From: an uncultured Paenibacillaceae bacterium
GTDB taxonomy: Bacteria > Bacillota > Bacilli > Paenibacillales > K13
NCBI GenBank assembly: GCA_913056365.1
Contig: CAJXLT010000010.1
Location: 1-64,000, forward strand
DNA: 64,000 nt
Reading direction: 5' to 3'
In this document: positions 5,778 to 54,949 of the stretch, piece by piece
Layout: every line of letters starts with the position of its first letter
Position numbering within the stretch: position 1 is the stretch's first letter
Program-made: the position numbers and the translations under genes
The notes under the pieces: generated by a model
Databases searched by the model: none
What the model was told of the DNA's origin: nothing
What the model saw: only the letters and a program-made list of their open reading frames with translations

Positions 5778-6043
5778 CCGTGCACCTGTTATTGATGATT
5801 GCGATCCAAGCGGCACTCTTGTCGTTAGCTCAGGCCAGGCTACCCTCCGGCACATGAACCTTCTTGCTTACGGCTGCTTTCTTCCGAACCTGACCGGGTT
5901 CACAAGCGTTCATTGCGAAGGACCCGGCCGTCAACACCACGTGCAAACGCCAGCCTCACATCAGCAATACCTCTAACAGGAATTCAACCCCGCTGTAGCG
6001 GATTGCGGGTTACAGGGCACCGCTACCTCCCCGTCTAGCACGG
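5778..6043 (-). ncRNA. ffs: Signal recognition particle RNA, Bacillus large type
   Basis: About 266 nt, matching the length of B. subtilis scRNA (271 nt). The 5' end CCGTGCTAGACGGGGAGG and the 3' end GGTGCACGG pair to close the molecule. The conserved helix 8 region is clear: GGGTCCTTCGCAATGAACG, then GTCAGGTTCGGAAG and AAGCAGCCGTAAG. It binds Ffh and HBsu and directs co-translational membrane targeting. The Alu-like 5' domain is present, as in Bacillus and unlike the 4.5S RNA of enterics. Ends are estimated from the closing stem, so they may be off by a few bases. Confidence 0.93.
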
Positions 6044-53036: not shown

Positions 53037-53867
53037 ATGTGGAATTACGTCAAGACAGGTTTTCACGCGGCTAGAGGACACATGGGCATCTGGTTGCTCC
53101 TGTTCCTCTATCAGTTCGCTTGGGGATTCTTCCTCTTCCGCTGGATTCATAGTGCAGTCTATCCGTTGCTCAAACGCTACCCGGGAGATGCCTTAGCCTC
53201 ATCCGACGTTATGCTGTTCTGGGCTGAGGCGGAATTCTGGCTGACACGAACCGAGGAAGTGATGCCCTACATATGGACGCTGGGAGCGGTCCTGCTGGCA
53301 CGAATGGTACTGACACCGCTCTTGGATGCTGGCTTGTATCATGCTGTCCATCAACGTGGCATTATAGGCAAGCGTTCAGGCCGCCGCCTCTTCCTGAGCG
53401 GTATTCGATCATTCGGGAGAGCCTTCACACTAGTCTATTGGATTAAGATTATCGCAGCTATCCTCCCGCTTCTGTATCTAGTTCCGTGGCTGCATCAACT
53501 TCTGCTATCTGCACAACAGTGGTCCGATTACTTAGGAAGCGGACTTCCTGCCGCAGTCGCTTATCTTCTCTATTTAGCCTTCCTACAGCTCCTCTCAATG
53601 TATGTGCAATTCAGCATCGCCGCCAAGCAGGCTGCCTTATCAGCGCTAACCTCGCTTGCGAAGAGCCTGCTGCGTGCTGTCGGCATCGGTCTGACCATTC
53701 TAGCTATTACAGGTGCAGCTGCGCTGCTCTCTGCGAGTATTTCCCTCGTATGGGCAGGGTTAGCAGCCGTCATTCTCCATCAGCTCTACACGGTCATTCG
53801 ACCGTTCTTCAGCATCTGGCATGTAACCGCACAACATCATCTCTGGAAAGAGAAGGCTACCATCTAA
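53037..53867 (+). CDS. Multi-pass membrane protein of unknown function
   Basis: A 276-residue protein with about six hydrophobic segments (near 18-38, 78-100, 128-152, 160-190, 205-232, 236-256). No catalytic motif and no family recognised. The start is preceded by GGAGAG, ten bases after the M1 peptidase stop, so it is translated from the same message and may help that enzyme or share its regulation. A terminator follows. Confidence 0.7.
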   Translation: MWNYVKTGFHAARGHMGIWLLLFLYQFAWGFFLFRWIHSAVYPLLKRYPGDALASSDVMLFWAEAEFWLTRTEEVMPYIWTLGAVLLARMVLTPLLDAGLYHAVHQRGIIGKRSGRRLFLSGIRSFGRAFTLVYWIKIIAAILPLLYLVPWLHQLLLSAQQWSDYLGSGLPAAVAYLLYLAFLQLLSMYVQFSIAAKQAALSALTSLAKSLLRAVGIGLTILAITGAAALLSASISLVWAGLAAVILHQLYTVIRPFFSIWHVTAQHHLWKEKATI

Positions 53868-53903
53868 GTAATACAACACATATTACGGACTTCATCATAA
53901 AGG

Positions 53904-53940
53904 GCTGACTCCGAGCATCTTCGCTCAGAGTCAGCTCTTT
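53904..53940 (+). terminator. Terminator of the M1 peptidase unit
   Basis: GCTGACTCCGAGC and GCTCAGAGTCAGC form a 12-13-base stem with one mismatch, followed by TCTTT. Confidence 0.8.
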
Positions 53941-54049
53941 GCCTATTTACGGAACCTTTGAATCTCTTATGAATATTTTAGAATCAAGAAGGAGATTTAC
54001 AAGCTTTGTAGAATAGTATACGCTGTGCAATTTTATCATTTTCAAAAAA

Positions 54050-54176
54050 AGATCGCCGAATTCCTGTATAGGAAACGGGGGAACCACGAGTTAGGGTGAA
54101 TTGGCTGCCATACACGTCAGCCATAGGGGACCTTCTACCGAACCCGATAGCTAACCTCGCAGGCGTGGAAGGAGTA
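54050..54176 (+). promoter_or_regulatory. Cyclic di-AMP riboswitch (ydaO/yuaA class)
   Basis: The conserved elements occur in order: ATCGCCGAA, CGGGGGAACC, TTAGGGTGAATTGGC, and CCGAACCCGATAGCTAACC followed by TCGCAGGCG, whose GGCG closes P1 with CGCC. This class shuts off its gene when c-di-AMP is high and often controls wall hydrolases and potassium uptake. The ribosome site GGAAGGAG (54167-54174) begins two bases after the last P1 base, leaving no room for a terminator, so control is probably at translation. Confidence 0.9.
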
Positions 54177-54182
54177 TTGAAA

Positions 54183-54683
54183 TTGAAAAAGGCAACAGCG
54201 GCGGTCATTGCCGTCATCATGATGCTTTCCATCTTCGCGGGAAGTGTTCAAGCAGCAAGCCCGCTTCAAGAGAAGGTGGACGAGCTGCTAGGGACAGCTT
54301 ACACATACGGAGGAACAACGACCAAGGGCTTCGATTGCTCTGGATTTACGCAATATATATTCGCGCAATTCGATATTGAGCTTCCTCGCAGTTCCCGTCA
54401 GCAGGTATATGCAACCGGAGAAGATGTAGAGCAGGATGATCTGCGAACTGGAGATCTCGTCTTCTTCAATACGAGCGGCAGCGGTATATCCCATGTCGGT
54501 ATCTATATGGGAGACGGCACCTTCGCCCACGCTTCCTATGACGGTGTAGAGTACACGGACATGGACGATGAATATTACGCCAAGCGCTATGTATCGGCTC
54601 GCCGGGTGTTAGGAGAATTCATGTATGAGAAGCTGACCACTGAAGAAGAGAACACCGAAGCAGAGACTGCAGCAGTTGAATAA
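54183..54683 (+). CDS. Secreted NlpC/P60 cell-wall hydrolase
   Basis: A 166-residue exported endopeptidase: signal peptide (MKKATAAVIAVIMMLSIFAG, cut after QAA), then a single NlpC/P60 domain with catalytic Cys52 (KGFDCSGF) and His104 (GISHVGIYMGDG), and a polar Glu/Thr-rich C-terminus. No cell-wall binding repeats. It would cut peptide stems in peptidoglycan. TTG at 54183 is the start (GGAAGGAG eight bases upstream); upstream in-frame codons belong to the riboswitch. c-di-AMP control fits its role in growth and osmotic balance. Confidence 0.9.
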   Translation: MKKATAAVIAVIMMLSIFAGSVQAASPLQEKVDELLGTAYTYGGTTTKGFDCSGFTQYIFAQFDIELPRSSRQQVYATGEDVEQDDLRTGDLVFFNTSGSGISHVGIYMGDGTFAHASYDGVEYTDMDDEYYAKRYVSARRVLGEFMYEKLTTEEENTEAETAAVE

Positions 54684-54709
54684 TGACAATCCCATACCTT
54701 GACACCATA

Positions 54710-54746
54710 CCTGCCCCTCACATTGTTGGGGGCAGGTTTTCTTTTT
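54710..54746 (+). terminator. Terminator of the NlpC/P60 gene
   Basis: CCTGCCCC and GGGGCAGG, eleven-base loop, then TTTTCTTTTT. Confidence 0.9.
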
Positions 54747-54865
54747 ATCGCAGCCACGTCAAACTGATCACTTGAAGGTCACTACTTCCCTGTTGTCCAT
54801 GAAATGAAGTGAGAATTACTGCAAATGTGCAGGTTTGGAGCGTACAGAACAGTTGATTTCCCAGA

Positions 54866-54949
54866 ATTCCTGCGATTGTGCATCTTTGCATTCGGATAAT
54901 CGCTTATTCAGGCGTTCTGAGCTACACAAAGATGTATATCAGCAGGCAT
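54866..54949. repeat. Second copy of the 84-bp inverted-repeat element
   Basis: Left end ATTCCTGCGATTGTGCATCT and right end AAGATGTATATCAGCAGGC are imperfect inverted repeats, the same ends and length as 29630-29713. The inner stretch TTCGGATAATCGC also resembles TCTCGGATAATGAG near 29602. Another short unit, CTGCAAATGTGCAGG, lies just upstream near 54829. The 420-base gap 54684-55104 holds no gene. Confidence 0.7.

Follow-up and report, generated by a model that had tools for sequence, protein, structure and literature searches.

We asked how a c-di-AMP riboswitch can control a cell wall hydrolase gene when the aptamer runs almost directly into the ribosome binding site of that gene. The question arises in a stretch of 64,000 nucleotides from an uncultured Paenibacillaceae bacterium (contig CAJXLT010000010.1; hereafter the window), in which a first-pass annotation, made from the letters of the DNA, had placed such a riboswitch ahead of a wall hydrolase. 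Both identifications were borne out. A cmscan of the whole window matched RF00379 (ydaO/yuaA, c-di-AMP) at 54044-54179 on the plus strand with 80.7 bits (E 3.6e-17, curated cut-off 38 bits) over the full length of the covariance model (1-134 of 134), and the 166-aa protein encoded immediately downstream (54183-54683, plus strand, TTG start) matched the NlpC/P60 family PF00877 with 118.3 bits (cut-off 23, E 1.9e-34) and has, by eye, a hydrophobic stretch at its N-terminus. The only other RNA that cmscan found in the window was a large bacterial SRP RNA (5778-6043, minus strand, 205.4 bits). On the 5' side of the aptamer, 24 bases (54004-54027, plus strand) are identical in a genome of the same genus (G001, exact match in L193). 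They could, as a guess, be a promoter region; a consensus promoter scan found no plus strand site at 54004-54027. The interval that separates the riboswitch from the gene upstream also holds a minus-strand hairpin of 14 pairs with a T-rich flank (53904-53935), probably a terminator.

In the Rfam alignment, the P1 helix is formed by 54054-54057 and 54162-54165 (plus strand) and ends at G54165, with an outer pair (54054/54165) that is C-G in 2, T-A in 46 and unpaired in 13 of 61 aligned leaders. The Shine-Dalgarno site, assigned from the sequence and from homologues, is GGAAGGAG at 54167-54174 (plus strand). Thus a single base, T54166, separates P1 from this site, one fewer than the two that had been annotated, and 17 bases only lie between the end of P1 and TTG 54183. 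The motif CCTTC lies exactly where it had been placed, at 54131-54135 (plus strand), and is complementary to GAAGG at 54168-54172 within GGAAGGAG; it is the sole exact 5-mer within 54044-54166 complementary to the ribosome site. The sequence and the homologues assign to CCTTC the roles of pseudoknot loop strand and anti-Shine-Dalgarno strand, and to GAAGG that of pseudoknot tail strand, so that the loop-to-tail pseudoknot of the RF00379 class is represented in the window by CCTTC/GAAGG.

TTG 54183, 8 bases past GGAAGGAG, is the most likely start of the gene, because homologues show a TTG at similar spacing. The annotation had suggested that a TTG start might add further tuning; TTG is common in this family, being used in 56 of 61 P60 leaders for which a start was called. 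Two other candidates were set aside: the in-frame TTG at 54177 is merely 2 bases from the ribosome site whereas the spacing in homologues is longer, and the open frame that begins at GTG 54096 crosses the aptamer and is unsupported. A strict terminator scan of 53700-54900 found none on the plus strand ahead of the gene, in agreement with the annotated absence of a terminator between aptamer and gene, for which the 17 bases would be all the room. The intrinsic terminator after P1 that defines a terminator-type ydaO riboswitch is thus absent from the window by the strict scan. The one plus strand terminator in the same scan lies downstream of the gene (54715-54732), within a terminator-like hairpin at 54710-54746 whose longer stem, read by eye, is CCTGCCCC/GGGGCAGG. 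A lax search also reported a hairpin with a T-rich tail in the coding region, 253-295 bases past P1; this search fires within coding regions and classed 41 of 62 P60 leaders as 'both' (i.e. with a terminator and a ribosome site), while a strict terminator, ∼180 bases past P1, was found in 2 of the 62.

Could c-di-AMP nevertheless act on transcription, by promoting termination without a canonical terminator (through Rho, through pausing or at a hairpin early in the coding region), with the contact to the ribosome site being secondary? Many RF00379 relatives use terminators, including the other copy in the same genome (see below), and a Streptomyces coelicolor riboswitch without a canonical terminator gave terminated transcripts in vitro (cited in PMC9960051). 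We nevertheless consider this improbable for the window: apart from the missing strict terminator and the 17 bases of room, it leaves the conserved anti-Shine-Dalgarno loop unexplained.

We searched for relatives of the hydrolase at the protein level, taking one genome per species, and kept the best 80 of 284 homologues (Paenibacillus, Cohnella and kin). All of them except L045 (79 of 80) have the 3' core of the aptamer directly ahead of the gene; when Rfam was run on 18 of the 80 (L032-L049), RF00379 was found in 17, again all except L045. Parsing gave 62 distinct P60 leaders, including those of the window and of G001, of which two were spurious second matches (L077, on the other strand, and L097, inside the gene), leaving 60 genuine ones. 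CCTTC in the loop together with GAAGG in the tail was present in 58 of these 60. The other two keep a complement in different letters: L108 pairs CCCTT with AAGGG, and L047 pairs CTCTC with GGGAG, including one G-T. A called start lay within 70 bases in 61 of the 62 parsed leaders. Moreover, 5-mers complementary to the tail occurred in the loop window of 59 of 62 leaders, compared with at most 8 of 62 in each of 97 earlier 11-base windows. Among shuffled leaders, 315 of 2000 held an anti-Shine-Dalgarno 5-mer at any position, which is not rare, and for this reason the letters of a single leader prove little; in one given 11-base piece such a 5-mer was rare (22 of 2000). It is the conservation of the pair in the same place across homologues that speaks, on this comparative footing, against chance. 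A chance pairing was rejected in view of this conservation together with the class-wide covariation described below. Two side observations were made at these loci. A guanidine-I riboswitch lies ∼0.1 to 0.9 kb past the hydrolase in L034, L036, L037, L040 and L044 (2102-2968), and at five Paenibacillus loci (L069, L071, L075, L094 and L279) two aptamer cores occur within ∼1 kb, each preceding a start codon, with genes that look like paralogous wall genes.

Is the pairing peculiar to the hydrolase leaders or a property of the riboswitch class? Another 178 distinct aptamers (92 sampled from the order, 86 from the phylum) were examined for complementarity between the loop and the tail that follows P1; of all 283 records, three (L045, L228 and L274) gave no parse. 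The letters of the two strands vary widely in the class and are mostly still complementary (e.g. CTCTC/GAGAG, CCTGT/ACAGG, CTTGG/CCAAG and CTCTTTCAA/TTGAAAGAG). The mean duplex energy of 87 distinct pairs from the order was -10.26 kcal/mol versus -8.17 kcal/mol (sd 0.24) when tails were swapped between aptamers, and that of 86 pairs from the phylum was -10.16 versus -7.96 kcal/mol (sd 0.24); in each case 0 of 60 swaps reached the true value, a contrast inflated by the relatedness of the aptamers. The P60 set (53 distinct pairs) showed no loop-tail covariation (-9.05 versus -9.02 after tail swapping, the true value being reached by 24 of 60 swaps) because both strands scarcely vary there, and conservation of the Shine-Dalgarno sequence alone could explain the constancy of one of them. 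For the P60 leaders we relied on alignment-free counts. A MAFFT alignment of 61 of the 62 leaders (L058 was dropped; the set comprised the P60 leaders passing the motif filter plus the leaders of L279 and L282) had 55, 20, 60, 58 and 55 of 61 rows paired at the five core pairs, and these pseudoknot columns were not used, as the alignment slips in the tail where the spacer between P1 and the ribosome site varies. Three P3 pairs in the alignment were guesses, one of them unpaired in every row, and were likewise left unused.

On these comparisons, CCTTC/GAAGG is the loop-to-tail pseudoknot that belongs to the ydaO class rather than an ad hoc anti-Shine-Dalgarno pairing, and in the hydrolase subfamily the Shine-Dalgarno sequence serves as its tail strand. 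In RNA-Puzzle 12, the ydaO RNA carries CUCCUUCG in its loop and CGAAGGAG in its tail (PMC5393176), and therefore contains the same CCUUC/GAAGG complement; by our own reading, these strands are the pseudoknot mentioned in the text of that paper. The simple translational switch through CCTTC and GAAGG that the first-pass annotation had proposed is thus favoured by the comparative evidence. It had missed that the pairing is the pseudoknot of the class, that this predicts an OFF switch, and that a translational riboswitch ahead of an nlpC gene had already been reported (PMC9960051).

How would the leader then work? Since loop and tail mostly pair across the class, their pairing belongs to the folded, ligand-binding form of the aptamer, and from this the OFF direction is predicted. 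We propose, with a probability of about 0.78, that the element is a translational c-di-AMP OFF switch for a secreted NlpC/P60 wall hydrolase, in which the pseudoknot hides the Shine-Dalgarno sequence. The leader RNA would fold as a ydaO aptamer, binding of c-di-AMP would lock P1 and the loop-to-tail pseudoknot, and the locked form would conceal GAAGG (i.e. the Shine-Dalgarno sequence) and turn the gene off; at low c-di-AMP the pseudoknot would be loose, the 30S subunit could occupy the site and initiation would take place at TTG 54183. What was computed is the aptamer, its layout before the gene, how well that layout is conserved, and the covariation of the pseudoknot across the class; we infer that the ligand stabilises the pseudoknot in the window RNA, that the switch is OFF and that it acts on translation. 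The genome encodes two DAC-domain proteins, so c-di-AMP is probably made. The estimated energy of the loop-tail duplex is -12.1 kcal/mol, and that of the ribosome site with the 16S tail, whose letters we presume, is -12.5 kcal/mol; as the two are nearly equal, a modest gain from the ligand could tip the balance.

The reverse direction was also considered. In the unconstrained minimum-energy fold of the window, CCUUCUAC pairs with GUGGAAGG (the ribosome site) in a nested hairpin that uses G54165 of P1, and the ligand-free form might therefore hide the ribosome site too. If the ligand broke up this hairpin, the element would be an ON switch. The nested hairpin has a probability of 0.37 in the window and exceeds 0.5 in just 1 of the 58 leaders that have the needed letters; being unconserved, it was rejected as the main model. 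With the class pseudoknot being part of the folded aptamer and the relatives tested so far being OFF switches (per PMC9960051), we regard an ON switch as very unlikely. In a pseudoknot-free model, the window leader folds no better than its shuffles (z 0.49).

It might also be argued that the pairing is purely structural, i.e. that the tail aids folding of the aptamer and that the adjacent P1 alone impedes the ribosome. In the class, the loop-tail pairing is indeed also found where the tail is no ribosome site, and with P1 only one base away, binding to the site could be impeded. What this explanation leaves unaccounted for is why, in nearly all parsed P60 leaders, the tail is a ribosome site suitably spaced for a start (a called start lies within 70 bases in 61 of 62), and we give it very little weight as the whole explanation, although such a structural effect could act jointly with the clamping of the Shine-Dalgarno sequence by the pseudoknot.

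Next, we asked whether the layout of the aptamer goes with the kind of gene that it precedes. The genome of the window itself contains one other RF00379 match (L001:1501-1760, G000:C12:7805-7960), in which the canonical tail is followed by CACAGGGGGCTGCCTCTGTG and a T run, with a TrkA_N/TrkA_C gene downstream; this copy is of the terminator type whereas the copy in the window lacks a terminator. (In related genomes, 5 to 10 RF00379 copies are common; this genus has 2.) Among the 178 aptamers outside the P60 set, the lax search classed 20 as 'trans', 21 as 'both', 129 as 'term' (terminator only) and 8 as 'neither', and a strict terminator was present within 200 bases in 86. The remark in the annotation that most ydaO examples act through a terminator therefore roughly matches the sample (86/178 strict, 129/178 by the lax terminator-only class). 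In 36 of the 178, P1 is followed within 30 bases by a ribosome site and a start, and there is no strict terminator; these are the 20 'trans' aptamers and 16 of the 21 'both'; the five 'both' aptamers with a strict terminator (L167, L172, L197, L205, L215) were put in neither set, and the eight 'neither' aptamers were left out of the comparison. Genes could be called for 123 of the 129 in the terminator set, and dropping seven that were already listed in either set left 116; each gene was taken as the longest of the open frames that begin no more than 750 bases on, a rule that will have picked some wrongly.

Wall-type families accounted for 34 of the 36 ribosome-site genes: CAP in 17, NlpC/P60 in 10, Hydrolase_2 in 5 and two single cases, a DPBB lytic transglycosylase and a PG_binding_1/LysM protein. 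The two remaining genes encode an octopine-dehydrogenase type protein and an amino acid permease. These identities combine the family tally with single scans for 20 genes and motifs for the other 16, and three of the genes (two at L279, one at L282) are homologous to the hydrolase gene of the window. The commonest families of the 116 terminator-type genes were Radical_SAM (17), TrkH (16), DUF348/G5 (11/10), LAM_C (8) and NAD_binding_2 (7), with CAP in 3 among the families listed; as this tally covers 25 of the 68 families, the last with 2 members, further wall genes may be hidden in the set. At least one NlpC/P60 gene is in it: L237 starts 12 bases past P1 and has no strict terminator, and looks translational although the lax search had filed it as terminator type. 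Counting DUF348/G5, CAP and L237 as wall-related, the proportions were 34 of 36 for ribosome-site layouts versus 15 of 116 for terminator layouts (Fisher p = 8e-20, which is descriptive only, given the relatedness of the members and the roughness of the gene calls). Exceptions in the terminator set that Pfam confirmed were four DUF348/G5 proteins and the CAP proteins L220, L243 and L271. A strict terminator lies ahead of L220, L243 and L190, and the lax search also places one before L147, L156 and L190; L271 has no terminator and starts 62 bases past P1. At L211 and L231, two aptamers stand before one called gene, a terminator type followed by a ribosome-site type, and are possibly tandem switches.

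Thus, among the sampled aptamers, ribosome-site layouts seem to precede wall enzymes and terminator layouts mostly do not, an arrangement that is possibly new; titles and abstract openings from text searches gave no description of this split or of the Paenibacillaceae layout, and an earlier mention is possible. Whether the c-di-AMP regulon of Bacillota as a whole is divided in this way, with terminators for transporters and metabolic enzymes and translational pseudoknot–Shine-Dalgarno clamps mostly for secreted wall-lytic enzymes, we regard as an evenly balanced question. If it is, wall lysis would be shut off at translation, at once and on pre-existing mRNA, whereas transporter genes would respond via new transcription only. 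The target split is worth following up, and so is the fusion, conserved among relatives, of the pseudoknot with the ribosome site. The locus offers a simple, testable structure by which c-di-AMP could stop the synthesis of a wall-cutting enzyme, and the sixty distinct leaders are a natural test set.

Finally, we compared the window with known systems. Wall remodelling is named among the targets of the class (PMC7266159), and an RF00379 element ahead of a wall-associated hydrolase appears in RNA-seq data from Paenibacillus riograndensis (PMC5670726). The riboswitch of B. subtilis ydaO/kimA shares the Rfam family, the ligand and the OFF direction with the element proposed here and, unlike it, works via a transcription terminator (per PMC9960051). 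The ydaO aptamer crystallised for RNA-Puzzle 12, with two c-di-AMP bound, has CCUUC/GAAGG as in the window and differs from it in being a construct without a gene (PMC5393176). A review counts ydaO, citing Nelson et al. 2013, among the riboswitches whose ligand-bound aptamer occludes the ribosome binding site (PMC10907184). The interdomain-docking translational riboswitches that it describes resemble our model in that the bound aptamer docks downstream RNA and hides the ribosome binding site, although preQ1-III, cobalamin and yjdF, which are also on its list, are aptamers unrelated to ydaO. The closest precedent is C. glutamicum nlpC (cg2402), reported in 2023 as an OFF switch that most likely acts on translation, with the transcript level unchanged, on the basis of a reporter and RT-qPCR; according to its authors, translational action had previously been unshown for c-di-AMP riboswitches (PMC9960051). 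A translational c-di-AMP riboswitch ahead of an nlpC gene is, by that report, already known. Both loci have a ydaO-type aptamer before an NlpC/P60 gene and no canonical terminator. In the window, the traits of the nlpC type are seen as a ribosome site that appears to be the paired tail strand, with the start 8 bases on, and as 17 bases between aptamer and gene in which the strict scan finds no intrinsic terminator. C. glutamicum is an actinobacterium, and its ligand-induced pseudoknot between CTCC and the ribosome binding site is a suggestion of the authors (PMC9960051). In the window, it is the pseudoknot of the class whose tail strand serves as the ribosome site.
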